Source: Bacteroidota bacterium (GTDB taxonomy: Bacteria; Bacteroidota; Rhodothermia; JANXDC01). Taken from it: a stretch of DNA of 64,000 bases. Made by a program: the position numbers and the translations under genes. The notes beneath the pieces are model-generated. The model was not told the DNA's origin, searched no databases, and saw nothing but the letters and a program-made list of their open reading frames with translations. Location of the stretch: assembly GCA_025059945.1 (NCBI GenBank), contig JANXDC010000005.1, forward strand, positions 62,001 to 126,000. The letters are read 5' to 3'. The first letter of the stretch is position 1, and each line of letters opens with the position of its first letter. Positions 6,691-64,000 of this stretch are shown piece after piece.

Positions 6691-7575
6691 GTGCAAGCCT
6701 ATGAGCTCCGCGAACTTGTAGCCCAGGTGCGCCGCCTAGAGGTGCGCACGCGGGGGCTTGTCAACCAACTCTTTGCCGGTCAGTACCAAGCGGCCTTCAA
6801 GGGCCGGGGGCTTACCTTCACCGAAGTGCGTCCGTATCAGCCGGGCGATGAGGTGCGGGCGATCGATTGGAACGTATCGGCCCGCATGGGGGAAACCTAC
6901 GTCAAGGTCTTCGAAGAGGAGCGGGAGCAGACCCTGCTGATCTTGTTGGACGTGTCGGCCTCGCTGCGCTTCGGGTCACGCTCCCGTCTTAAGGCCGAGG
7001 CGGCCACGGAAATCGCGGCCCTTCTGACCTTGAGCGCGCTGCAGAGCCAGGATCGGACAGGGCTCGTGCTTTTCTCCGATCGCATCGAACGCTTTCTGCC
7101 GCCCCGTAAGGGGCGCGGACACGGCTTTCGGATCCTGCGGGAACTGGTGGCTTTTCGTCCCGAAGGCCGGGGCACGGACCTGGCGGGGGCCTTGGAGTTC
7201 GCCCGCCGCCTGCTGCGACGCCGCAGCATCGTGCTCGTGCTCTCCGATGGCTGGGCCTCCGAATACGGCAAACAGCTGCGCATGCTGCGCGCGCGACACG
7301 ATGTGGTCTTCATCCGCCTCTTTGATCCCCGCGAGGCGGAGCTAGAGCCCGTTGGCTGGGTACCGACTCAGGACCTAGAGACGGGTCGCCTGCGGTGGCT
7401 GGACACGCTTCGGGCCGATGTGCGCCGATCTTGGGCGCGCGTCTATGCGCAAGAGCGGATTCGATGGCAGGAGCGATGCCGGAGGGCCTCTGTAGACGCG
7501 ATCGAAATTGACGTAAGCCGTCCCTTTGTAAGGGATCTCGTCCTGTTTTTCCGGAATCGGAGCAGAAGGCCATGA
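6691..7575 (+). CDS. DUF58 domain protein (Bat cluster)
   Basis: A 294-residue cytoplasmic protein of the DUF58 family. The signature RPYQPGDEVRAIDWNVSAR lies near residues 46-64 and is followed by a von Willebrand A-like core with LLILLDVSASLRFG near 83-96. Related proteins are partners of MoxR AAA+ ATPases and BatA/BatD proteins in envelope stress tolerance or protein maturation. I chose GTG 6691, because earlier in-frame starts fall inside the tRNA and its terminator. The stop overlaps the next gene in an ATGA junction. No moxR gene is adjacent, which is unusual for the cluster. Confidence 0.85.
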   Translation: MQAYELRELVAQVRRLEVRTRGLVNQLFAGQYQAAFKGRGLTFTEVRPYQPGDEVRAIDWNVSARMGETYVKVFEEEREQTLLILLDVSASLRFGSRSRLKAEAATEIAALLTLSALQSQDRTGLVLFSDRIERFLPPRKGRGHGFRILRELVAFRPEGRGTDLAGALEFARRLLRRRSIVLVLSDGWASEYGKQLRMLRARHDVVFIRLFDPREAELEPVGWVPTQDLETGRLRWLDTLRADVRRSWARVYAQERIRWQERCRRASVDAIEIDVSRPFVRDLVLFFRNRSRRP

Positions 7576-8465
7576 TCTGCGCGGCGGCGCTAGCCGTTTT
7601 GCTGCTCGCCAGCCGGCAGGCAGAGCCCGTGGTGCGCTCCTATTGGAGCGCACCCCAACGAGCAGAGCTGGGAGATCGGGCCAGTTGGGTCCTCGTGGTG
7701 CAACATCCCGACTCCATGACGCTGGACTGGCTTGCGCCCCCAGAGGTCGATAGCCAGCTTGCGCAGGTGCTGGCCTTTGCGCGCTGGCCGGCCGAGCCAG
7801 TAGGGCCGGGATGGCGACGCGATAGCTTGCTCGTCGTCGTGCTCTTGCTGGCTGCGGACACCGTGGTGCAGCCTTCTTGGCGTTTGGCGCTTCGCGCCTC
7901 TTCCGGCTGGAGCGGATCGCTCACCGTGGCCGCGCCCCCCTTGCGGGTGCTCTCCGCCCTGCCAGATACGATGCGCGATCTGGCGGACCTAAAGAGCGCA
8001 TCCATGGCCGCCCCGGAGGCCCGATGGCCGGCCTACATCCTACTGGGCCTTGTGCTCCTATGGGCGCTTTTCGTCATCCACAAAGGGCGTGTTCAGCTGT
8101 ACTTTGGGGAGCCCGGGGTTTACCGCGCTCGTCTGCGGGCCCAAGAACGCCTGCGTCGGCTCCTTTGGACGGAGGGCTCCGATCCCGGGGCATTTATCGA
8201 GGAGTTGGTCGATACGCTGCGCGATCTGCTGGCCGAGGAGGCTGGGCTTCCGGCCCGGGAGCGCACCAGTTCCGAGCTGTTAGCTCTGGCCCGAGAACGC
8301 GGCTGGCCGGAATCGGCCCTAAGTCTGCTGCGCCAGCTCCTCGAGAAGGCCGACTTGGTCAAGTTCGCCCGATACCCAGCTTCAGCCGAACAGGCTCAGA
8401 GGGCTCGTGAAGCCGCCTTGGGTTTGCTGGGCATGTTGCTGGGCCCAGAAGCAAGACGCCGATGA
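7572..8465 (+). CDS. BatD-like membrane protein
   Basis: A 297-residue protein with a short N-terminal signal segment (ICAAALAVLLLAS), a periplasmic beta-rich stretch of about 130 residues, a membrane helix near residues 153-171 (YILLGLVLLWALFVI), and a cytoplasmic helical tail rich in Arg and Glu. The topology and the position between DUF58 and BatA fit the BatD or DUF4381-like component of Bat clusters. Sequence similarity alone is weak, so the call rests on topology and context. It overlaps both neighbours by four bases, so the three genes form one operon. Confidence 0.6.
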   Translation: MICAAALAVLLLASRQAEPVVRSYWSAPQRAELGDRASWVLVVQHPDSMTLDWLAPPEVDSQLAQVLAFARWPAEPVGPGWRRDSLLVVVLLLAADTVVQPSWRLALRASSGWSGSLTVAAPPLRVLSALPDTMRDLADLKSASMAAPEARWPAYILLGLVLLWALFVIHKGRVQLYFGEPGVYRARLRAQERLRRLLWTEGSDPGAFIEELVDTLRDLLAEEAGLPARERTSSELLALARERGWPESALSLLRQLLEKADLVKFARYPASAEQAQRAREAALGLLGMLLGPEARRR

Positions 8466-9436
8466 TCACTTTCGCCCATCCGCATTGGCTCCTTCTGCTC
8501 GGTCTGCTTCCGTTTTACTGGGGCTTTCACTTCTGGCGAGAGCGGCGCTGGGGAGCCGTTCCCGTTTCAAGGTTTCCGGCCGCTGTGGGGACCTCATTCT
8601 GGTTTCGGATTGTACCGCTGCTTTTGCGCTCCGGAGCGTTTGCGCTGTGCGTGCTGGCCTTAGCTAGCCCAGAGCGAACTTTCGGCGTGGCCCCCGAGGC
8701 GCGCATGGGCATCGATATCGTGCTGGCGTTGGATCTTTCGGGTAGCATGCGAGCCGAGGACTTACGTCCGAATCGCTTTGAGGCGGCCCAGGCGATGGCG
8801 CGCGCCTTTATCCAGAGCCGCACCCAAGACCGCATCGGCCTTGTGGCCTTCGCCGGCGAGGCGTACACGGCCTCGCCTCTGGTAACGGACTACGGATTTC
8901 TACTGCGCATCTTAGATGACCTGCGGCCCGACTTGCTCGAAGACGGCACGGCCATCGGCATGGGCCTGGCTACGGCCGTGGCCGCGCTGCGCACCTCCCG
9001 GGCGCCAAGCCGCGTGATCGTGCTCCTGACAGACGGCCAGAACAACCGCGGCCCTATCGCGCCCGAGACAGCGGCCGAATTGGCCCGGCAATTCGGCATC
9101 CGCGTCTACACGATCGGCGTCGGCACGCGCGGCGAAGCGCCCTATCCGATCGAGGATTCTATACTGGGGCGCCGATACGTGATGGTGCGCGTGGACGTAG
9201 ATGAACCGACCTTGGAAGCGATCGCCGCTCGGACAGGCGGGCGTTACTTTCGGGCAACGGACAACACGAGCCTGGAGCGCATCTACCGGGAGATCGATCA
9301 ACTGGAGCGATATCGAATCGTGGTTCCGGGCCCCGGTTTGCGCGAACCCCTTTATCCGATCTTGCTGCTTGCGGCCCTGGGCTTGCTAGTGTTGGACTTT
9401 CTGCTCTCCGGCACGCGGCTCCGAGCCCTTCTGTAA
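8462..9436 (+). CDS. batA: BatA-like von Willebrand factor A membrane protein
   Basis: A 324-residue protein with two N-terminal membrane helices (about 8-25 and 55-75), a VWA domain and a C-terminal helix (LLLAALGLLVLDFLL). The metal-ion-dependent adhesion site is complete: DLSGS near residues 91-95, a Thr in the second loop, and LLTDGQNN near 188-195. This is the organisation of aerotolerance-operon BatA. No second VWA gene (BatB) or TPR protein (BatC) follows; instead the oppositely transcribed coaD overlaps its last 51 bases. Confidence 0.85.
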   Translation: MITFAHPHWLLLLGLLPFYWGFHFWRERRWGAVPVSRFPAAVGTSFWFRIVPLLLRSGAFALCVLALASPERTFGVAPEARMGIDIVLALDLSGSMRAEDLRPNRFEAAQAMARAFIQSRTQDRIGLVAFAGEAYTASPLVTDYGFLLRILDDLRPDLLEDGTAIGMGLATAVAALRTSRAPSRVIVLLTDGQNNRGPIAPETAAELARQFGIRVYTIGVGTRGEAPYPIEDSILGRRYVMVRVDVDEPTLEAIAARTGGRYFRATDNTSLERIYREIDQLERYRIVVPGPGLREPLYPILLLAALGLLVLDFLLSGTRLRALL

Positions 9437-9904
9437 CCGAGACCGAAGCGCTTCAAGTACGGGATCGGGCACATATGGGCTTACGTCACCGCCCCAGTGC
9501 GCGATCTCCCGGACCAAAGAGGCGGACAGCACGGTGTATTCTTGACTGGGCATGAGGAAAACGGTCTCGATCTCGGGGGCCATACGACGGTTTGTAAGCG
9601 CCATCTGGAACTCATAGTCGAAGTCGCTCACCTGGCGCAGCCCCCGGATTACGGCGCAGGCGCCCACGGATCGGGCGAAATCCACCAAAAGTCCCTCAAA
9701 GGCCACCACCCGCACCTGGGGCCAAGAGCCCACGCAGCGCTCTATGAGGGCCAGCCGCTCGTCGAGCGAGAAAAGCGTCTGCTTCTTTGGGTTGACTCCC
9801 ACGGCCACCCACACCTCGTCAAAGAGCCGGCAGGCCCGCTCTAGGATGTCCAGATGGCCTCGGGTGATCGGATCAAAAGTGCCGGGGTAAAGCGCGCGCC
9901 TCAT
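9386..9904 (-). CDS. coaD: Phosphopantetheine adenylyltransferase CoaD
   Basis: A 172-residue nucleotidyltransferase of the coenzyme A pathway that makes dephospho-CoA from 4'-phosphopantetheine and ATP. The N-terminus ALYPGTFDPITRGHLDIL contains the TxGH version of the HxGH motif. RGLRQVSDFDYEFQMA and the C-terminal LSASLVREIA (the ISSTxxR-like motif) are present. The start ATG at 9904 is set by the family N-terminus and overlaps the rsmD stop in an ATGA junction. Its last 51 bases run antisense to the 3' end of batA, coding about 17 variable C-terminal residues. Confidence 0.95.
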   Translation of the reverse strand: MRRALYPGTFDPITRGHLDILERACRLFDEVWVAVGVNPKKQTLFSLDERLALIERCVGSWPQVRVVAFEGLLVDFARSVGACAVIRGLRQVSDFDYEFQMALTNRRMAPEIETVFLMPSQEYTVLSASLVREIAHWGGDVSPYVPDPVLEALRSRLQKGSEPRAGEQKVQH

Positions 9905-10473
9905 GACGCAGAACCCTCCCAGGGCGGCGGAGGTTCGGAATGAAAGTAGCTCACCATCGTGCGGCCGTAGCGGCGCGTATCGATCCAGTCCGGCTGCGCC
10001 TCCCAGAGAAGTCCGGGGCCGTGTTCGAGCACCAGCCACGTGTTAGGTCCGTAGACGGCCGAGGCCTGGATGCGGCGCACCAAATCCGGGTAGTCCCGGT
10101 AATGATACGGGGGATCGGCGAAAATAACCTCGAAGGGCTCCTGAGCCCGCTCCAGATAGCGTTCTACGGCCATGCACACCGGTTCGGCCCGCTCCCAGAC
10201 CGCCCAAGAATCGAGGGTGCGCCGAAGCTGGGCGCACGCCACGGGATGCCTTTCTACGAAGGTCACGCCCCGCGCCCCTCGGCTCAAGGCCTCCAGCCCC
10301 AAAGAGCCAGTCCCGGCGAAAAGATCCAGGACGCGAACCCGAGGCCAGTCGACGCGGTGTTGCAGAAAATTGAAGATGGCCGCGCGCACGCGCTCGCTTG
10401 TGGGCCGGATGCGCACACCAGCCGGTGTGTACAGGCGACGTCCTTTGAACGCCCCGGCGATGATGCGCATCAT
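9901..10473 (-). CDS. rsmD: 16S rRNA (guanine-966-N2)-methyltransferase RsmD
   Basis: A 190-residue class I methyltransferase. The SAM-binding motif is VLDLFAGTGSLGLEAL near residues 48-63 and the catalytic NPPY-type motif is IFADPPYHYRD near 116-126. The N-terminus MRIIAGAFKGRRL is characteristic of RsmD. Two ATGs in a row are possible starts (10473 or 10470). The upstream DUF3822 gene overlaps it by four bases and coaD follows with another overlap. The order DUF3822-rsmD-coaD is, from memory, common in Bacteroidota. Confidence 0.95.
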   Translation of the reverse strand: MMRIIAGAFKGRRLYTPAGVRIRPTSERVRAAIFNFLQHRVDWPRVRVLDLFAGTGSLGLEALSRGARGVTFVERHPVACAQLRRTLDSWAVWERAEPVCMAVERYLERAQEPFEVIFADPPYHYRDYPDLVRRIQASAVYGPNTWLVLEHGPGLLWEAQPDWIDTRRYGRTMVSYFHSEPPPPWEGSAS

Positions 10474-11363
10474 AGCCCCAGGGCCGCGCCGATTGGAAGC
10501 GCGTACGTAGAAAGCGGCAGATCCGGCGGTAGACGGTGCCGTTGGAGCACAAGCCCGGCGAAGGGATCTAAGGGCTCAATCGGGCAACGCAACACTTCGC
10601 GCGTCTGCCCAAATGCCGACTCCTCGGCGTTCGTGTAGTAATAGACGCGCCCCAGATGGGACAATCCGATCCGATGCGCCTCCAGCAGCCGCAGGCCGAA
10701 ATACAGGGCGTTGAGGGCGTCACCAACGGGGTAGCTCGCCGCGGCCGCCCAGGCGCTCTGCCACCTGAGAGCCACTTCCGTGTATTCGTGATACGCGCCC
10801 ACAAGCAGTATCGCCTGCTCCTGCCTCTCTCCGAAAGAAACCTCGAAAGCCCGTTCGGCGGCCACAAGCGTGGGCGCGATGTGGATCGATTTTACCGCCA
10901 GCGGACGTACGAGCTCCCGCCAGCGCTCATATAAGGCCTCTGAGACGGCTACCGCAAGCACCGCCCCCGCTTCATCGGGTCTATGATGGGTGTAACAGCG
11001 CAATCGGTGCTTGGAAGGCTCCAGAACAGGGTAGAGCCGTTCAAGCTCCCACCAGGCGCTTCGGGCCTGCTCTTGCGGGGACGCGTCCGGGGGCAAGGGG
11101 ATGAAAGCATGTGGCAATGCCGAGAGCGGCGCGCTCACCGTAAGGCGCCTGGACAAGGAACGCCCCAGCACGCTTTCGAGCGCTTGCCGAACTGTGTCCA
11201 GCTGCCCCGGCGGGGGGGATGGCCCCAACAAGACCGGCTCCAGAGGAAAAGAGAACTCGCAGCTCCCCAGCCGCACCAGCCGCCGAGCTAAGGGCTGATG
11301 CTCGATCTCGGCATAATAGAGCACCGAGCCCTCGAAGGCGATGCCCACGCTGAGGCGATCCAT
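10470..11363 (-). CDS. DUF3822-type actin-fold protein
   Basis: A 297-residue protein. It opens with LSVGIAFEGSVLYYAEIEH and ends with TYALPIGAALGL, a pattern like the first and last strands of the PilM/FtsA/Hsp70 actin fold. In Bacteroidota a DUF3822 protein of this size with this fold usually sits beside rsmD, as here. The ATP-contact glycines of true actin-fold ATPases are weak, so catalytic activity is doubtful. The function of the family is unknown. It follows the one-TM protein gene at 15 bases, suggesting a shared transcript and perhaps a membrane complex. Confidence 0.55.
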   Translation of the reverse strand: MDRLSVGIAFEGSVLYYAEIEHQPLARRLVRLGSCEFSFPLEPVLLGPSPPPGQLDTVRQALESVLGRSLSRRLTVSAPLSALPHAFIPLPPDASPQEQARSAWWELERLYPVLEPSKHRLRCYTHHRPDEAGAVLAVAVSEALYERWRELVRPLAVKSIHIAPTLVAAERAFEVSFGERQEQAILLVGAYHEYTEVALRWQSAWAAAASYPVGDALNALYFGLRLLEAHRIGLSHLGRVYYYTNAEESAFGQTREVLRCPIEPLDPFAGLVLQRHRLPPDLPLSTYALPIGAALGL

Positions 11364-11378
11364 GGAGGGCGCCGACGA

Positions 11379-11843
11379 TCACTCCCAGCTAGCCACGTGG
11401 ACCTTGGTCGCGTCCACGGAGTCCCCGATGAAGTCCGGCCCGTCGGGGTCCTTGAGAAAATACACTTTCGCCGTATCGTTGACGAAGAGGATAAAGCGCT
11501 TACCTGTTCTCGGGGAGAAGGGCAGGGAATCCGGGACAAAACGCGAGCCGACGTAGACCGGAAACAGGCTATCGAGCCTGGCCTGCACGAGCGAGTCCGT
11601 TTTCAGAAACTGGATCAGGGAATCCCAGTTGGCCGTGAAGCGGCCGAAGGCCCGAAAGAACTCTCGCTCGGCCGTTCGGACGTTGTCCATGCGGATGCGG
11701 ACGAGCTCCGTCATCCGCTGCTGGCGTTCGTACTCCCGCCACGGGTCTGTAATCGAGCGATAGAGCAGATAGCCCAATACGGCGATAAGAACGGCCAAGA
11801 CACCCTTGAGCAGGTTTTGCAGTGTGTTTTGTGGTGACGCCAT
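11379..11843 (-). CDS. Conserved Bacteroidota one-TM protein
   Basis: A 154-residue protein with one N-terminal membrane helix (GVLAVLIAVLGYLLY, about residues 13-29), a short coiled segment (RMTELVRIRMDNVRTAEREF) and a periplasmic beta-rich domain. Similar proteins of unknown function recur in Bacteroidota, next to DUF3822 genes. The start is unusually well supported: AGGAGG lies seven bases before the ATG at 11843-11841. Its topology resembles PilN-type partners of actin-fold proteins, but that is only an analogy. Confidence 0.6.
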   Translation of the reverse strand: MASPQNTLQNLLKGVLAVLIAVLGYLLYRSITDPWREYERQQRMTELVRIRMDNVRTAEREFFRAFGRFTANWDSLIQFLKTDSLVQARLDSLFPVYVGSRFVPDSLPFSPRTGKRFILFVNDTAKVYFLKDPDGPDFIGDSVDATKVHVASWE

Positions 11844-12002
11844 CCGCAAGCCTCCTGTGATCCGTAACAGCCCTCCGCGAGCTCCCGAAAAGGCCTTTTT
11901 ATGGGGCCGATCATCGGCAAGCAGGGCGCGTGAAAATACGCGCGCAGCGCCTGAAGCGCAACGCGCCTAGACTCTAGCTCGGTCGGATTACAACAAAGTT
12001 GC

Positions 12003-12974
12003 CTAGCCGGTGGCCCGTACGCGTACCGGCCTTCGCGGGCGTATCCGAACGGCTAAGGCCTCGGGGAAATCGGCCGGCACCCAGACACGCAAAGGTTCCG
12101 CTTCAGCCTGCACCAGCAATTCCACATAGAGCCCAAAAAACTGCCGAGCCAACACGGGCCAGCCGGCCGGATCCGGGCTGACGTCCCAGTCCTCCGGACG
12201 TACGGCCCATCGGTGCCCGGGCTCGGAACGCAACCCCCAAGCCTCCACCCAGGGCGCCTCAGGCAGCACGTTGGCGCCCAGAAAACGAGCCACGAACTCG
12301 GTCTCGGGCTGCCTATAGACCTCCTGCGGCGTGCCTACTTGCTCCAGCCGCCCCTGCCACAGGATACCTACCCGATCGGCTAGGGCTAGAGCCTCCTGCT
12401 GGTCATGGGTTACGTAGATGGCCGTAAGCCCGCTCTCGCGCTGCAGGCGCTTAAGCTCCGTGCGAGCCTGCTCGCGCAGCGCCGCATCCAGGTTGGAAAG
12501 CGGCTCGTCAAAGAGCATAAGACGAGGCTCCAGGACGAGCGCACGGGCCAGGGCTACGCGCTGCTGCTGACCACCGCTCAGAGCGGAGACGGGCTTGCTC
12601 AGCTCCCGCTCCAAACCCAGCCGCCGCAAGATGCGCATCGCATGCGCATGTTGTGCTGAGCGTGCCAGGCCTCGCGCGGCTAGCCCGAAGCCCACGTTTT
12701 CCAGCACGTTCAGGTGGGGAAATAAGGCGTAATCTTGAAAGACCATCCCCACAGGTCGCCGCTGCGGAGGCAGTTCGGTGATATCCCCGCCGTCAAGCCA
12801 AATGCGGCCGAGATCGGGCCGCTCAAGGCCGGCTATGAGCCGCAGCAAGGTGGTCTTGCCGCATCCGCTTGGCCCTAGCAGAGCAAAACATTCCCCCTGC
12901 GCGACCTCCAGGTCGATACCGCGCAGCACCTCCTGATCCGAAAAGCGCTTCCAGATACCGGCTAGACGCAACAC
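12003..12974 (-). CDS. ABC transporter ATP-binding protein (PotA/CysA/FbpC type)
   Basis: A 323-residue ATPase subunit of an importer. Walker A is GPSGCGKTT (residues 34-42), the Q-loop is VFQDYALFPHLNV, the signature is LSGGQQQR, Walker B is LMLFDEP, and the H-loop His is in YVTHDQQEA. A TOBE-like beta domain of about 90 residues follows and usually mediates regulation. The group imports sulfate, iron, polyamines or molybdate; substrate cannot be told. No permease or binding protein is adjacent, so it is an orphan here. The GTG at 12974 is the best start; the GTG at 13034 adds 20 unrelated residues. Confidence 0.85.
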   Translation of the reverse strand: MLRLAGIWKRFSDQEVLRGIDLEVAQGECFALLGPSGCGKTTLLRLIAGLERPDLGRIWLDGGDITELPPQRRPVGMVFQDYALFPHLNVLENVGFGLAARGLARSAQHAHAMRILRRLGLERELSKPVSALSGGQQQRVALARALVLEPRLMLFDEPLSNLDAALREQARTELKRLQRESGLTAIYVTHDQQEALALADRVGILWQGRLEQVGTPQEVYRQPETEFVARFLGANVLPEAPWVEAWGLRSEPGHRWAVRPEDWDVSPDPAGWPVLARQFFGLYVELLVQAEAEPLRVWVPADFPEALAVRIRPRRPVRVRATG

Positions 12975-13120
12975 GGCCGTGAAGTTAGGGCTACGCAAGG
13001 CGCGAAAAAATAGCGCTCCGGCTCTACATCCCACCTGGGCCCGATACCTGCCCGGAAGAAAAAGCCGGAACCGAACCCCACACCAGCCCGTTTTTGCTCT
13101 CTGGAAGAGGGGGGCAAAGA

Positions 13121-15157
13121 ATGCCGTTTCAGCTTGTCTCCGAATACGAACCCACCGGTGATCAGCCTAAGGCGATTCGAGAGCTCGTCGAGGGGGTACG
13201 ACGCGGCCTCAAATACCAGACCTTGCTGGGCGCCACGGGCACGGGCAAGACGTTTACCATCGCCAACGTGATCGCCCAGGTCAACAAACCCACTTTGGTG
13301 ATCAGCCCCAACAAGACGCTCGCCGCGCAGCTTTACGGGGAGTTCAAGCAGTTCTTCCCGCATAACGCCGTGGAGTTCTTCATCTCCTACTACGACTACT
13401 ACCAGCCCGAGGCCTACTTGCCGGCCACAGATACCTACATCGAAAAGGATTTCGCCATCAACGAACAGATCGACCGGCTGCGGCTGCGGGCCACAAGCGC
13501 CCTGCTATCGGGTCGAGACGACGTGCTGGTGGTCGCCTCCGTTTCGTGTATCTACGGGCTGGGCTCACCAGAGGACTACCGCAGCCAGATCCTGCACCTT
13601 AGAGCCGGACAGCCGCTGCGGCGTCATGAGCTGCTGTCGCACCTGGTCAACGTCTTCTATACGCGCCAAGATGAAACCCTGGAACCCGGCACCTTTCGGG
13701 TCCGAGGCGATCTCGTGGAGCTTTTCCCGGCCTATGAGGACGCTCCCTTGCGCTTCGGCTTCTGGGGGGATGTGCTGGAAGAAATCGTGCGCCTCGATCC
13801 CCTCACAGGGAGGGCGCAGGCCCATCTGGAAGCGGTTAGCATCTATCCCGCTAAGATCTTCGTTACGCCCGCTGAACAGTTGGAGCGGGCCATACGCAGC
13901 ATCGAAGCCGAGCTAGAGGAGCGCCTAGCCGAATTGCGGGCTCAGGGTAAGCTCCTGGAGGCCCAGCGACTAGAGCAGCGCACACGCTTCGATTTGGAGA
14001 TGATGCGGGAGCTCGGCTACTGCTCCGGGATCGAGAACTATAGCCGGCATCTGTCCGGCCGCGCGCCTGGCCAGCGGCCGTATTGTTTGTTCGATTACTT
14101 TCCGCGAGACTACCTGCTCATTATCGACGAGTCCCACATCGCCATCCCGCAAATCCGCGGCATGTACAACGGAGACATCAGCCGCAAACAGGTGCTCGTA
14201 GAGCACGGGTTTCGGCTGCCGAGCGCCCTGGATAATCGGCCGCTGCGCTTTGACGAATTCGAATCCCTGATCCAGCAGGTCATCTTCGTCAGCGCCACCC
14301 CGGGTCCGTATGAACTAGAAAAATGCGGCGGGGTGGTCGTGGAGCAGATCATCCGTCCCACGGGGATTTTGGACCCAGAGGTGGAGGTCCGACCAACGCG
14401 CAACCAGATCGAAGACCTTATGAACGAAATCCGGCGCGTGGTCGAGCGCGGGGAGCGAGCCCTGGTCACCACGCTCACCAAGCGCATGGCCGAAGACTTG
14501 ACGGACTACCTGGTGAGTTTCGGTTTTCGCGTCCGCTACCTGCATTCGGAGATCGATGCCCTGGAGCGGGTGGATATCCTGCGCGATCTGCGGCTAGGTG
14601 AGTTCGACGTGCTCGTGGGAATCAACCTGCTCCGCGAGGGCCTTGATCTTCCGGAGGTGGCGCTTGTGGCGATCCTGGATGCGGACAAAGAGGGGTTTTT
14701 GCGCTCCGAGCGGTCCCTGATCCAGATAGCCGGACGGGCTGCGCGCAATGCGGCCGGCAAGGTGATCCTGTACGCAGATCGGGTCACCGAGGCCATGCGG
14801 CGCATGATCGAAGAGGTCCGCCGCCGCCGGGCTATTCAAGAGGCCTACAACAGGCGGCACGGCATCGTCCCGCAGACGGTGCGCAAACGACCAGAGCAGA
14901 TCCTGCAGACGACCGCGGTGGCCGATCACCTGACCGCGCGTCAGGAGCGGCGTCGCTATTACGTAGAGCCCGAGCCAACGCAGGTCGTAGATCCGCTGGT
15001 CTCGTACTTGAAGCCGGAGCAACGGCAGCGGCTCATAGCGGAACTCAGGCGCCAGATGCGAGAGGCCATCGAGGCCTGGGAGTTTGAGCGCGCAGCCGAA
15101 CTGCGGGACGCGATCCGACAGCTGGAGCAGCTCGAAGGCGCCCTAGGGCCTTCTTAA
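13121..15157 (+). CDS. uvrB: Excinuclease ABC subunit B (UvrB)
   Basis: A 678-residue helicase-like subunit of nucleotide excision repair, which receives damaged DNA from UvrA and recruits UvrC. Walker A is [12 protein letters not shown] near residues 37-47. The flexible beta-hairpin region is [12 protein letters not shown], the DEAD-like box is IDESH, motif VI is QIAGRAARN, and the C-terminal UVR domain ([18 protein letters not shown]) contacts UvrC. The ATG at 13121 gives the family start [19 protein letters not shown]. The gene stands alone and its last 15 bases overlap the PLD gene on the other strand. Confidence 0.97.
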
Positions 15158-59382: not shown

Positions 59383-60757
59383 GATCGAAAAGCCGGCCTT
59401 TGAGGGCAAGGGCTTAGGGCGAATCGACGGCCGGATCATCTTCGTGCCCCGCGCCGTGCCCGGGGATCGGCTTCGGGTGCGCCCCGTCAAGATCAAATCC
59501 CAGTACGCCGAGGCCGTAACGCTTGAGGTCCTGCGCTCCTCGCCGGACCGCGTTGAAGCCCCCTGCCGGCACTTCGGCCTCTGCGGGGGTTGCTCTTGGC
59601 AACACGTGCGCTATGAGGCCCAGTTGGCCTACAAACGGGAGCTTGTACGCGAGCTCTTTGTGTACCTCGGCAACCTAGACGGCTTGCCCGAGGTGCGCCC
59701 CGTAATTGGAGCCGATCCGATATTCGGCTACCGCAACAAATTGGAGTTCTCCTTTTCCCCGCGAAGGTGGCTATCAGCCGAGGAGATCGCCACCGGAGAG
59801 CCTCTGGACAAGGGCTTTGCGCTGGGCTTTCACCTGCCCGGCCGCTACGACCGAGTCTTGCACCTGGAGCGCTGCTGGCTAGCTCCGGAGCTAGGCAACC
59901 GGCTGCTTGCGGCCATCGGCCAGTACGTGCGCACTCAAGGCTGGAGCGTCTACGACCCGCACCGACAGAGGGGCTACCTACGCCACCTTGTGCTGCGCTT
60001 CGGCGTGCGCACCCATCAGGTGCTCGTCAACCTTGTTACGCACACCGATGAGCCCGAGCGCATGCAGGCCCTATCCGGATGGCTCCAGGAGACCTTCCCG
60101 GAGGTGAGCACGTTCGTCAACAACATCACGAGCCGTCCGGCGCAAGTGGCCGTAGGGGAACAGGAGCGCGTCTACCTGGGTCCGGGATATATCGAAGAGC
60201 AACTTGGGCCCTTCCGGTTTCGCATCGCGGCCAACACCTTCTTTCAGCCCAACACGCACCAGGCCGAGCGACTCTATGAGGTCGTGCGCGAGCTGGCCGA
60301 GCTTCGGCCCACAGATCGGCTCTTCGACCTGTACTGCGGCGCGGGTACGATCGGCATCTACTTAAGCCCGTGGGTGCGCGAGGTAGTGGGCATCGAACAG
60401 GTGCCCGTGGCTGTCGAAAACGCGCGCCAGAACGCGCTCCTTAACGGGGTGCGCAACGCCACCTTTTACTGCGGGGACGTACGCCAAATGCCCTGGCCTG
60501 AGCTCATGGCCGCTCACGGAGCCCCGGACGTGGTCGTGCTCGATCCCCCCCGATCCGGCCTGCACCCCGACGTGGTGCGCCTGTTGCTAGAGCTGGGCCC
60601 GGAGCGCATCGTGTACGTAAGCTGCAACCCGGCCACGCAAGCACGGGACCTTAAAGGGCTCATCACGCGCTATCGGATAGAGGCCATTCAGCCCGTAGAC
60701 CTGTTTCCGCACACGTATCACATCGAAACCGTGGTTCGGCTCACGCGCCAGCCGTGA
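59360..60757 (+). CDS. rlmD: 23S rRNA (uracil-5-)-methyltransferase RlmD
   Basis: A 465-residue RumA/RlmD-family enzyme for m5U in 23S rRNA. An N-terminal TRAM domain (IEKPAFEGKGLGRIDG) is followed by an Fe-S site with CRHFGLCGGC and later Cys. SAM motif LFDLYCGAGTIGIYL lies near residue 320. The DPPRSGLH and catalytic VSCNPATQARDL motifs near 405-430 are intact. The exact target could also be tRNA (TrmA-like), but the Fe-S Cys set favours RlmD. The start ATG at 59360 is preferred; 59348 is possible. Confidence 0.9.
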   Translation: MEREWIVEIEKPAFEGKGLGRIDGRIIFVPRAVPGDRLRVRPVKIKSQYAEAVTLEVLRSSPDRVEAPCRHFGLCGGCSWQHVRYEAQLAYKRELVRELFVYLGNLDGLPEVRPVIGADPIFGYRNKLEFSFSPRRWLSAEEIATGEPLDKGFALGFHLPGRYDRVLHLERCWLAPELGNRLLAAIGQYVRTQGWSVYDPHRQRGYLRHLVLRFGVRTHQVLVNLVTHTDEPERMQALSGWLQETFPEVSTFVNNITSRPAQVAVGEQERVYLGPGYIEEQLGPFRFRIAANTFFQPNTHQAERLYEVVRELAELRPTDRLFDLYCGAGTIGIYLSPWVREVVGIEQVPVAVENARQNALLNGVRNATFYCGDVRQMPWPELMAAHGAPDVVVLDPPRSGLHPDVVRLLLELGPERIVYVSCNPATQARDLKGLITRYRIEAIQPVDLFPHTYHIETVVRLTRQP

Positions 60758-61560
60758 AACCTGAGCTGCGCCCCACCTGGAAGCCCCGCAAGCGCTGGGG
60801 GCAGCATTTTCTGCGCGATTTGCACGCGGCCCGTCACATCGCCGCCTTAACGGAAGCCGGTCCGGCGGACTGGGTGATCGAAATCGGCCCCGGAACAGGT
60901 TCGCTTACGGTTTGGCTTCTGGAGCGCACCCCACACGTGACGGCCCTGGAAATCGACCCCCAAGCCGTGACGCAGCTGCGCCGGCGGCTTCCGGAGCTCG
61001 ACGTGCGCCAAGCGGACGTGCGGGATCTGAACTGGCCGGCCCTGCTTGAGGAGCGCCCGCAACGACCCATTCTCTGCGGCAACCTCCCCTACTACCTGGG
61101 CTCCTGGATCGTGCGCATGGCGCTGGAGAACCGAAACCGGCTGCGCGCAGCCGTTTTCACCCTGCAACGCGAGGTGGCCGAACGCCTTACCGCCTCCGCC
61201 GGCACGAAGGCCTACGGGAGCTTGAGTGTGCTGGCGCAGCTTTGGAGCCGACCGGAGCTCTGCCTTCGACTGCCTCCGGGGGCCTTCTATCCCCCTCCGA
61301 AGGTGGAAAGCGCCGTCGTGCGTCTTGTCTTCGACCGGCCCGAGCTCCCCGTGCGGGACGCCTTCGTAGAGCAGCTGGTGCGCGCGGCCTTCGCCAGGCG
61401 ACGCAAGACGTTGCGCAACAACCTGCGCTCGCTACCGTTGCCGGAGAAGCTGCTCCTGCGCTACGGGAACAGGCGCGCCGAGGAGCTTTCGCCGGAGGTC
61501 TTCGTGGAACTAGCCCAAGCCTATGAGGTCGCAAGCCGGCAGACGGGTCCCTCCCCCTAA
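60754..61560 (+). CDS. rsmA: 16S rRNA dimethyladenosine transferase RsmA (KsgA)
   Basis: A 268-residue methyltransferase that dimethylates two adjacent adenosines in helix 45 of 16S rRNA. The N-terminal PRKRWGQHFLRD, SAM site VIEIGPGTGSLTVWLL, and catalytic NLPYYLGSWIV (the NLPY motif) near residue 109 are present. The C-terminal RRKTLRNNLRSL is typical. The start is a GTG at 60754 that overlaps the rlmD stop in a GTGA junction. It converges with the symporter gene and shares four bases with it. Confidence 0.95.
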   Translation: MKPELRPTWKPRKRWGQHFLRDLHAARHIAALTEAGPADWVIEIGPGTGSLTVWLLERTPHVTALEIDPQAVTQLRRRLPELDVRQADVRDLNWPALLEERPQRPILCGNLPYYLGSWIVRMALENRNRLRAAVFTLQREVAERLTASAGTKAYGSLSVLAQLWSRPELCLRLPPGAFYPPPKVESAVVRLVFDRPELPVRDAFVEQLVRAAFARRRKTLRNNLRSLPLPEKLLLRYGNRRAEELSPEVFVELAQAYEVASRQTGPSP

Positions 61561-62948
61561 AGAGATCCCCGAAAAAGGCGCTCGCGCACAAGGTTCGCCA
61601 GCCAGAGCAAGACGCACCAAGCCAGGCCCGCGTACAGGGGCTCAATACCCCCCCAGTAACCCTCTGGCCTTCGGGCTAGCGCCATCCAAAGCAGCGCGCA
61701 AAGTGGGCCGCCTATGAGCATTCCAAGCGCGATCATCCGAGAAGGACGCCAACGCGCAGCATAGGCCCCCAGCGTAGGCAGAAGCAGCCCCGGAATCATG
61801 AGCGTGCCCAGCGTATACCAAATCGCGATCACCCCGGGGGCCCATAGCGCGATCAGAAGCGCAAGCAAAAGCGTGGCCAGCAGGCCCACCCGAACATACG
61901 TGCCAGCAGGCCATCGGGCATGCCAACGGCCCAAGACTTCAAAACCGAGCATCTGCGCCGAAAGCAACAGGTAACTGTCCACCGTGGACATGATCGTGGC
62001 CAATAGACCCACCCAGAAGAGCCCCTTTAGCCCCGGCGGTAGGGCCTGTTCGGCTAAGGCGGGATAAGCCAAGGCGGGATGCGCTAGCTCCCTCAGAAGG
62101 GCGCGTGCGTACAAACCGGCCGCGGTGGTGAGAGCATCGAAGAGAACCCAGAACAGCACCGCGCCCAAAATGCCCTTTCGGGCCGTCTCGGGAGAGCGAG
62201 CGGCCAAAACGCGCTGATGAAAGCCCGGATCTACGAACGTCCACAGGGCCACGAAAAACCAGACAAGCACATACCCTAAACCCTGCCCGCCGTCCCAGGA
62301 CCAGTGGCTCGGGGGCAGGGCCGAGCGCAGAAACGCCCACCCTCCGTACTGCAGCACAAGCCAAGGCACGATAAGGCCAAAGCCTAGGTACATGAGCCCG
62401 AACTGCCACGCGTCGGTGCGCACCACAGCCCGGAAACCGCCCGTCCACACGTACGCCCCCGAGGCCACAGCCCCCAAAAGAAGCGCCCACACGAAGGGCA
62501 GCCCGGTTGCCGCCTGCACCAGCAGGCCCAACATATACACGTACGGCGCGGGGCTAGCCAGCACGGCGCTCCAGAGGGCGCCCAGAAGACCTGCCCACGG
62601 TCCATAGACGGCTCGCAGCCGATCGGGCACGGAAAGGGCCCCGCTGCGCCGGATGGGCTCAGCCCAAAACAAGGCGAAAAGCAGGGCGAACACGTAGTAG
62701 GGTAACCCGAAAACGAGCCACTGGGAGATGCCGTACCGGTAAGCGTACTCCCCCACCCCCAGGATGCCCCCATACCAGGTGGAGACAAGCGTGGCCACGA
62801 AAGCAGGGGCCGTAAGCGCGCGCCCGGCTAGCAGAAAATCCTCGGCTGCTTGACTTCGGGCGCGCGCCCTCCAGAACCCCCGGTAGAGGACCCACAGCGC
62901 GTAGGCGCCCACAAGCGCCCAGTCGATCAGGTGCAACCGGAAAGGCAT
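61557..62948 (-). CDS. Sodium:solute symporter family transporter
   Basis: A 463-residue SSS-family permease with about 12 to 13 membrane helices. Typical stretches are FLLAGRALTAPAFVATLVST near residue 40, the helix with GGFRAVVRTDAWQFGLMYL, and LFWVGLLATIMSTVDSYLLL near 310. Substrate cannot be told from the sequence: relatives carry sugars, proline or pantothenate. Its start overlaps the thiamine pyrophosphokinase stop region by 22 bases, and a TonB receptor precedes both, so thiamine uptake is a reasonable inference. Confidence 0.85.
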   Translation of the reverse strand: MPFRLHLIDWALVGAYALWVLYRGFWRARARSQAAEDFLLAGRALTAPAFVATLVSTWYGGILGVGEYAYRYGISQWLVFGLPYYVFALLFALFWAEPIRRSGALSVPDRLRAVYGPWAGLLGALWSAVLASPAPYVYMLGLLVQAATGLPFVWALLLGAVASGAYVWTGGFRAVVRTDAWQFGLMYLGFGLIVPWLVLQYGGWAFLRSALPPSHWSWDGGQGLGYVLVWFFVALWTFVDPGFHQRVLAARSPETARKGILGAVLFWVLFDALTTAAGLYARALLRELAHPALAYPALAEQALPPGLKGLFWVGLLATIMSTVDSYLLLSAQMLGFEVLGRWHARWPAGTYVRVGLLATLLLALLIALWAPGVIAIWYTLGTLMIPGLLLPTLGAYAARWRPSRMIALGMLIGGPLCALLWMALARRPEGYWGGIEPLYAGLAWCVLLWLANLVRERLFRGSL

Positions 62949-63616
62949 CGCAGCTGGGGCTCCAGGCGGGCCCCCGACCGAAACCCCGCTCGGCTCGGGT
63001 GGGTGATGAGGATCAGCAGATCACCTCGCTCCAGGCGCACGCGTGCAGGACGGGCGCTAAGCTCGTTTGAGGATCCATCGCGCACCCCGTTCTCCAGCGC
63101 CTCCCCTCTTAAAGCCCATCGCAAGCCCTCGGTCCAGATCCCTTCGGCGCGTCCGGACAGCGGGAAAAGGGACACGGGAAGCCCCACCGGGCCGTCGAAG
63201 ATGAGCTCCTGTCCCCCTCGGATAAGCTCGATGCGATGGTCTTCGTCCTCTAACCAGATCCGTTCAAAACGCGGCTGAAAGCGCCGCATCACGGACAGGT
63301 TCTTGAGCGTGTGATCCAGACGCCGGCCTGTGGCGCCGAGCACGACAACCTGTTGGACCCCCTGGCTGAGGACCCAGGCCAGGGCTTTTTCCAGATCGTT
63401 CGTCTCCTGGTCTGGGTCCCGCACCAGAAGCGTCCTGCCCTCGAACTCGCCTTGGTAGCTGTCCATGTCTCCGATGATCGCATCCGGAACTAGACCCCAG
63501 CGCGCCGCCAGGCGAGCTGCGCCGTCTGTGACGACAAAACAGCCCGAGCGTCGCAAATGCCCCCGCAGGCGGCGCTTGCGGGGGGGCTGTCCATCGGCCA
63601 GCACCAGCGCGCGCAT
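62927..63616 (-). CDS. Thiamine pyrophosphokinase
   Basis: A 229-residue enzyme of the Thi80/TPK family that makes thiamine diphosphate directly from thiamine and ATP. Signature motifs are AIIGDMDSYQGEF near residues 47-58, DQETNDLEKALAW near 69-81, and VLGATGRRLDHTLKNL near 94-109. A C-terminal beta domain binds the thiamine. It is used for salvage of imported thiamine. It starts six bases after the TonB receptor stop and overlaps the symporter by 22 bases. Confidence 0.92.
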   Translation of the reverse strand: MRALVLADGQPPRKRRLRGHLRRSGCFVVTDGAARLAARWGLVPDAIIGDMDSYQGEFEGRTLLVRDPDQETNDLEKALAWVLSQGVQQVVVLGATGRRLDHTLKNLSVMRRFQPRFERIWLEDEDHRIELIRGGQELIFDGPVGLPVSLFPLSGRAEGIWTEGLRWALRGEALENGVRDGSSNELSARPARVRLERGDLLILITHPSRAGFRSGARLEPQLRCLSGCT

Positions 63617-63622
63617 GGCCCT

Positions 63623-64000
63623 CTATAACTCCAGCTTCAGCCCCGCGTATACGGCGCGCGGCGCGGCCGGGAAGAAGTTGTCCGCCCCGAAGCCCGTCGT
63701 CAGGTAGCGCCGGTTTGTGAGGTTGCTCACCTCCAGGTTCAGGCGCGCGCTCAGGCGATCGGCCCACCGCAGCCGATAGGTCAGTCGGGCGTCCGCAACC
63801 GCATAGGCCTCTACGTAACGGGCCGGATCCCGGGATCCTGAATTATCCGTATGATGGGGCCCTACGTGCCGGGCTAGCAGCTCCAACTCCCAAGGGCCGC
63901 GCTGATAGCGCAAGGTGAGGTTGGCCAGCCGCTCCGGGGCGCTAGCGATCGGGTTGCCGTCGCGCTTTTGAGGCTGGGCTTGGTCGTCGTATTCCGTAAA
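63623..64000 (-). CDS. TonB-dependent receptor, C-terminal part
   Basis: The frame is open to the window end on the minus strand and gives the last 125 residues of a TonB-dependent receptor. ASAPERLANLTLRYQRGPWE is the usual start of the final barrel strands, NLEVSNLTNRRYLTTGFG is the conserved 'NLTNRRY' segment, and the chain ends AVYAGLKLEL, a barrel-closing strand. Plug and TonB box are outside. It is followed by thiamine pyrophosphokinase and a symporter, so its ligand may be thiamine. Confidence 0.85.
   Translation of the reverse strand, partial: FTEYDDQAQPQKRDGNPIASAPERLANLTLRYQRGPWELELLARHVGPHHTDNSGSRDPARYVEAYAVADARLTYRLRWADRLSARLNLEVSNLTNRRYLTTGFGADNFFPAAPRAVYAGLKLEL

Follow-up and report, generated by a model that had tools for sequence, protein, structure and literature searches.

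Thiamine uptake loci and the SSS-containing locus of a Rhodothermia genome

Uptake of thiamine (vitamin B1) in Bacteroides has been attributed to the OMthi-PnuT-Tnr3 genes, which combine a thiamine pyrophosphate (TPP) riboswitch, a TonB-dependent receptor, an inner-membrane carrier, and a thiamine pyrophosphokinase (TPK), and genes of this type form a single operon in most gut genomes (PMC5613172). Here we describe a locus with likewise these four parts in a Bacteroidota bacterium of the class Rhodothermia (GenBank assembly GCA_025059945.1; 2.14 Mb in 16 contigs). It lies at the end of the window, the whole 64,000-nucleotide stretch of contig JANXDC010000005.1 that was analyzed (positions 62,001 to 126,000 of the forward strand), and continues past it. 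The Bacteroides system uses PnuT (PF04973) as its carrier (PMC5613172), whereas this locus has a member of the sodium/solute symporter (SSS) family instead. Judged by its gene content, the locus works like an outer membrane receptor (OMR)-PnuT-TPK operon, yet it is not a PnuT operon. We consider it very likely that it is a thiamine uptake-and-trapping operon in which the SSS protein takes the role of PnuT.

The combination has a precedent. All four parts occur at one locus in Caldithrix abyssi (Cabys_3975-3977); the passages on that locus credit the receptor with thiamine transport and say nothing about the symporter's substrate, its distribution, or PnuT (PMC5317091). A Calditrichaceae metagenome-assembled genome (locus L096) has a gene order identical to that of our locus. 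ThiV/SSSP of SAR11, Methylobacillus, and algae is a PanF-like member of the SSS family with a TPP riboswitch (PMC4260697, PMC2211319, PMC11452348) and has been listed as a B1 transporter (PMC6593275). Our SSS gene, like that of ThiV, stands in what would, from gene spacing, be a TPP-riboswitch transcription unit, but it is linked to both a TPK and a receptor, linkages that the literature passages on ThiV/SSSP do not name. The fungal SSS protein Dur31 has a TPP riboswitch in many species, and its deletion in Candida led to pyrithiamine resistance, which was taken to indicate thiamin transport; it differs in being eukaryotic and in having a riboswitch that acts on splicing, and the passages on it mention no kinase linkage (PMC5997356). 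Given the reported C. abyssi locus and the existence of other SSS proteins that belong to thiamine metabolism (ThiV, Dur31), the locus is of a kind already known. An earlier note on this DNA, made from its sequence alone, had called the SSS protein a different solution for inner-membrane import; this stands in that the protein does exchange with PnuT, as described below, but the solution is not new, as C. abyssi and many other genomes share the combination. In the openly licensed PubMed Central literature, we found no account of the spread of the SSS arrangement or of its exchange with PnuT in place.

The order at our locus is TPP riboswitch, TonB receptor, TPK, and SSS, all on the minus strand. 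The SSS gene (61557..62948; 463 amino acids) overlaps the TPK gene (62927..63616; 229 amino acids) by 22 bases (62927-62948), and 6 bases (63617-63622) separate the TPK gene from that of the receptor, of which the 3' part lies in the window (63623..64000). Followed in the genome sequence past the window, the receptor gene encodes 800 amino acids (63623-66025 in window numbering; L003:5623-8025), and AAGGAG stands immediately 5' of its ATG. The open reading frames thus bear out the spacing and common direction of the three genes that the earlier note had read. The SSS protein, identified from its reading frame, Pfam, its orthologues, and an AlphaFold2 model, matched the Pfam SSF family (PF00474) at 74.1 bits (cutoff, 22.8). 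Its best NCBIfam models were the generic sss superfamily model TIGR00813 (89.2 bits against a cutoff of 184; E value, 2.8e-25) and panF (64.7 against 328), both far short of their cutoffs; the low E value below the TIGR00813 cutoff marks it as a divergent member of the family. The TPK matched the Pfam domains TPK_catalytic (78.6 bits; cutoff, 30.7) and TPK_B1_binding (31.6; cutoff, 22) and the NCBIfam equivalog thi_PPkinase (124.3; cutoff, 76.4), and its residues D50, D52, S53, Q70, D74, K77, G97, R99, D101, and N106 were invariant in all 12 aligned kinases. The receptor matched the TonB barrel family at 123.1 bits (cutoff, 27) and also carries plug and CarboxypepD_reg-like domains.

The earlier note had suggested looking for a TPP riboswitch upstream of the receptor, beyond position 64000, and one was found there (RF00059; 66149-66259; L003:8149-8259; G000:C5:128149-128259) at 64.1 bits against a gathering cutoff of 54.3. 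It is one of only two TPP riboswitches recovered by a whole-genome search, and its 3' end lies 123 bases ahead of the receptor start codon. Between the two, reading and folding of the sequence revealed a terminator-like hairpin (66109-66139; L003:8109-8139) in which GCCGCCUU pairs with AAGGCGGU, followed by six U. This is the usual form of an intrinsic terminator, and the hairpin may act as one. Its folding is unexceptional (z score of -1.29, with 21 of 200 shuffled sequences folding equally well), and it is absent from the listing of a terminator scan, probably because of its long loop.

The receptor family itself was associated with TPP riboswitches. In a set of 40 genomes, consisting of our genome and 39 others of its class, receptor homologs gave 29 matches in 28 genomes at an E value of 1e-60 or lower, and the remaining 12 genomes had no match at that threshold. 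For all but one of the 29 matches, a TPP riboswitch is present on the same strand, and the match starts 78 to 406 bases downstream of it; the exception is G002, whose receptor and riboswitch are on separate contigs. By this association, the receptor is of a thiamine-linked family, in keeping with the class that the earlier note had given it. The gene group is not a chance assembly, because it recurs in many named lineages (see below) and one of the two TPP riboswitches of the genome precedes it. The SSS gene also converges with a plus-strand gene (60754-61560; rsmA/ksgA-like by eye), the two overlapping by 4 bases (61557-61560).

Thiamine genes of the genome and proposed mechanism

The genome seems unable to make thiamine de novo, in difference from Bacteroides thetaiotaomicron, which additionally synthesizes thiamine (PMC5613172). 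Neither ThiC nor ThiG was found in it, and it had no match to PnuT (PF04973), for which the earlier note had proposed a check. ThiB matched only below the cutoff (43.6 bits against 93.4), as did ThiB-type proteins in 8 of the 9 genomes with an SSS orthologue; PnuT and ThiB were accordingly set aside as alternative inner-membrane carriers. Since PnuT, ThiC, and ThiG were not found and ThiB did not exceed its cutoff, the organism is predicted to need B1 or its precursors from outside. The second TPP riboswitch, on another contig, precedes thiM, thiE, thiD, and tenA (L004 [G000:C1:104000-120000], 7566-14303), and thiL is also present, so that salvage of both halves of thiamine would be possible as well. 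After thiM-thiE-thiD-tenA, and in the same direction, come a 306-amino-acid frame without a Pfam match and then a second TonB receptor.

We propose that a low cellular TPP level would let transcription proceed from the riboswitch past the downstream terminator. The TonB receptor would then move thiamine across the outer membrane, and the SSS symporter would move it across the inner membrane, probably together with Na+. TPK would convert thiamine to TPP and so trap it in the cell, and TPP would feed back on the riboswitch. In this scheme, import of thiamine across the inner membrane very probably falls to the SSS protein. The thiamine uptake unit of the earlier note is supported by the riboswitch, the lack of a PnuT match, the receptor family, and the linkage to TPK, with transport deduced from these.

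SSS and PnuT occupy the same position in some related genomes

Within the 40-genome set, 34 genomes had an SSS match of any kind, and 9 had an orthologue of our SSS protein, set apart by E values of 1.4e-103 or lower (next best, 2.0e-26). TPK adjoins the SSS orthologue in all 9, and neither PnuT (PF04973) nor ThiC was found in any of them. Of the 21 genomes that bear a TPK, 9 have the SSS orthologue and 12 have PnuT; none has both and none has neither. Fisher's exact test on these 21 genomes gave 3.4e-6 when genomes were counted and 0.005 when genera were counted (4 versus 6), the latter being the fairer figure because the genomes are related. The other 19 genomes, which have no TPK, comprise 10 with a PF04973 protein, 6 with ThiC, and 3 with neither; PF04973 cannot separate PnuT from the nicotinamide riboside carrier PnuC, and the 10 proteins may therefore include PnuC. 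Ten genomes (G007, G009, G011, G017, G019, G021, G023, G029, G033, and G038) pair a TPP-riboswitch receptor with a PF04973 carrier and had no match to TPK (PF04263) or ThiC, which leaves TPP formation in them unexplained by the families searched.

In five genomes of the 12 with PnuT (G008, G016, G018, G024, and G026), PnuT and TPK are no more than about 1 kb apart; in G014 the distance is about 5 kb. Four loci from the first five genomes, selected for the adjacency of PnuT and TPK, were compared with the loci of G022, G032, and G037, three genomes of the same family that carry the SSS. All seven loci have protein clusters 6, 5, 4, and 3 on one side and, past TPK on the other side, the DHH-family cluster 1; the position between cluster 3 and TPK is held in each by either SSS or PnuT. 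Judged by gene order, the presence of SSS instead of PnuT reflects a real exchange in place for part of the group.

A search of the roughly 1.5 kb around each SSS gene found no TPP riboswitch in 11 loci: in the genus of our genome, the receptor and TPK genes separate the SSS gene from the riboswitch, and in the other genomes there is no riboswitch close by. It was the whole-genome search that recovered the riboswitch.

Relatives of the symporter in other lineages

A scan of one genome per species confirmed at least 578 relatives of the SSS protein. The best 80 of these at least 578 were retained, and the counts that follow therefore describe the closest relatives rather than all of them. Their record titles place them in Ignavibacteriae, Kryptoniota, Marinimicrobia, KSB1, Balneolaceae, Calditrichaceae, Zixiibacteriota, Armatimonadetes, and other lineages; one of them, L047 (Bacteroidetes bacterium KatS3mg041), is the same-genus genome G001 of the 40-genome set. 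In 69 of the 80 loci, the gene immediately upstream of SSS, on the same strand, encodes TPK, and a receptor match of more than 150 bits is upstream in 37. A TPP riboswitch stands ahead of the receptor in 31 of these 37, of which 21 were found by a short sequence pattern and 10 by Rfam. The pattern gave 22 hits in total, one of them (L121) at a locus without a receptor. Four pattern hits that were rechecked (L090, L096, L108, and L121) were all confirmed by Rfam, and L047 was confirmed by the whole-genome search; L073 and L113 had no riboswitch on the Rfam check. In L057, L070, and L091, the receptor is interrupted by a contig end. At L051, a single riboswitch precedes thiM and thiE, and further downstream in the same direction come the receptor, TPK, and SSS. 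An apparent TPK-SSS fusion in L052 was rejected owing to an ambiguous base at the junction.

Among the 50 genomes that contain the first 50 loci, one had a PF04973 match (63 residues; 29.5 bits; cutoff, 27.3), and ThiC was matched in 2 of 49; as a yardstick, 14 control genomes gave ThiC matches in 13 and PF04973 matches in only 5. Plasmid-borne SSS matches had at most 31.6% identity among the 30 listed of 142, and no thiamine genes were present in the three plasmid contexts that were read.

Fold, conserved residues, and phylogeny of the symporter

The AlphaFold2 model of the SSS protein, built from an alignment of 54 sequences (the window protein and 53 of the 80 outside loci, hand-picked for spread), has a mean predicted local distance difference test (pLDDT) score of 94. 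As modeled, the protein has the LeuT-type fold of the SSS family. The nearest folds in the PDB were the choline transporter CHT1, SiaT, and SGLT, with NIS also among the top matches; CHT1 aligned with a Z score of 44.7 and 3.0 A over 454 residues, although differences in Z among the matches partly reflect conformational state. Ser321 occurs in 79 of 81 clade rows and Thr/Ser322 in all 81, and both kinds of residue are found in all 25 other SSS rows; this pair, on the eighth core helix, we take to be the Na2 site.

All 81 clade rows share Trp58, Tyr59, Glu67, Tyr85, Trp230, Phe243, Gln245, and Trp377. Of these residues, Trp58 is found in 3 of the 25 other SSS rows, Glu67 in 1, and Phe243 in 1, but Trp377 in 17. 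A hand reading of the alignment to the bacterial choline transporter sfCHT placed Trp58, Tyr84, and Trp377 of our protein on W99, Y126, and W445, which correspond to CHT1 W62, Y91, and W406; position 84 is Tyr or Phe in all 81 clade rows. These three CHT1 residues are among those described as surrounding choline (PMC11589582, PMC13220886). Of the two other positions compared, CHT1 W141 aligns with Ser132 (Ser or Thr in 75 of 81 rows), and W254 falls in a gap. CHT1/sfCHT is the nearest solved fold, with three of the five compared positions matched, but its substrate is choline, a quaternary ammonium, and not thiamine. It is possible that the aromatic pocket of the SSS protein binds the charged thiazolium ring of thiamine.

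A tree was built from 26 clade rows (with 17 of the 80 outside rows) and, as the only comparison rows, Escherichia coli PanF, 3 plasmid SSS proteins, and 21 paralogues. The 26 clade rows held together with support of 100/100, apart from those 25 comparison rows. The tree carried long-branch warnings for PanF, the 3 plasmid rows, and the paralogue L034, and 8 of its 48 inner forks were open; for L034, the best-scoring frame of the locus was used, which is another frame than the original. The row next to the clade, on a long branch, was an SSS protein of Clostridioides difficile (L127:4986-6380; NZ_CP149720.1). It has SWYGG in the first core helix and DPTFYQR in the sixth, like the clade, yet 25.9% identity, and no thiamine genes are among its listed neighbors.

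Alternative substrates

Several observations weigh against a clade of thiamine importers that stands in for PnuT. The transport activity assigned to the clade derives from sequence and context. The bacterial SSS relative for which there are uptake data, ThiV of SAR11, is a likely carrier of hydroxymethylpyrimidine (HMP), in a strain unable to use thiamin (PMC11452348). Outside the genus of our genome, none of the seven SSS orthologue loci of the 40-genome set has an adjacent TPP riboswitch or receptor; four of these genomes (G022, G030, G034, and G039) have the receptor under its own riboswitch elsewhere, G002 is split across contigs, and neither G032 nor G037 gave a receptor hit at an E value of 1e-60. 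In G004, G006, G010, G012, G020, and G028, six of the 12 genomes with PnuT, this gene is distant from TPK or sits on a different contig, and the shared position therefore holds for only part of the group. A sequence profile places SGLT1 slightly above CHT (4.7e-16 versus 1.9e-15), so that the SSS protein resembles CHT only in its fold and at a few residues.

TPK is also not directly upstream in 11 of the best 80 loci (L059, L063, L064, L072, L076, L090, L093, L094, L102, L104, and L108), of which L063, L076, and L102 have less than 900 bases of upstream DNA. L090 and L108 (KSB1 and Zixiibacteriota) have the riboswitch, receptor, and SSS with no TPK between them. L059, L093, L094, and L104 have other genes upstream despite room for a TPK: by Pfam, an alpha-amylase/CBM48 enzyme in L059 and L093 and a universal stress protein in L104. 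The rows of L059, L093, and L104 form one small clade in the tree.

The better of the alternative explanations is that the SSS protein, as a ThiV-type carrier, transports HMP, or HMP and thiamine both, with thiamine entering by another, unrecognized route. SAR11 ThiV, the likely HMP carrier, is itself under a TPP riboswitch (PMC11452348), our genome could use HMP and thiazole alcohol through thiM, thiE, thiD, tenA, and thiL, and ThiC is nearly always missing from SSS genomes (present in 0 of 9 orthologue genomes of the class and in 2 of the 49 genomes behind the outside loci), as expected of HMP users. ThiV is marked by a Tyr in cTMD2, an Asp in cTMD3, and a Phe in cTMD6 (SiaT positions 78, 139, and 254) (PMC11452348). 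Tyr85 and Phe243, present in all 81 clade rows, could be two of the three, and no conserved Asp was seen in the third core helix when the alignment was inspected by eye. The context speaks for thiamine: the SSS gene is tied to TPK, both in 69 of the best 80 loci and in all nine orthologue genomes of the class, and that enzyme acts on thiamine and not on HMP; PnuT, whose position the protein occupies, carries thiamine; and the HMP-salvage genes of our genome are under the separate riboswitch. Neither PnuT nor ThiB exceeded its cutoff in our genome, other inner-membrane thiamine systems not having been searched for. We regard an HMP carrier as unlikely, and the substrate would be thiamine rather than HMP.

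That the protein carries an unrelated solute (sugar, pantothenate, or choline), with TPK as its neighbor by chance or for shared expression, seems highly improbable: SSS proteins carry many different solutes, the best NCBIfam models are the generic sss model and panF, both well short of cutoff, and four of the best 80 loci lack TPK despite upstream room, but the linkage to TPK across many lineages, the mutual exclusion with PnuT, and the TPP riboswitches upstream all argue against it.

Implications for vitamin B1 uptake

We return to the SSS protein as a thiamine carrier. With less confidence than for the single locus, we think it on balance probable that a distinct SSS subfamily, in the Fibrobacteres-Chlorobi-Bacteroidetes (FCB) group and a few other lineages, works as a sodium-driven importer dedicated to thiamine, that it has a CHT-like aromatic pocket, and that it has been swapped with PnuT beside TPK in place. 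If this is true, many of these bacteria import B1 via a carrier that is unnamed in the family models searched. B1 auxotrophy is usually predicted from the absence of ThiC together with the presence of known carriers, and an SSS clade recognizable by its sequence and its TPK neighbor would provide many uncultured members of the FCB group with the carrier that they seem to lack. SSS and PnuT, as unrelated carriers in one slot, would make a clean pair for testing what is required of a thiamine carrier.

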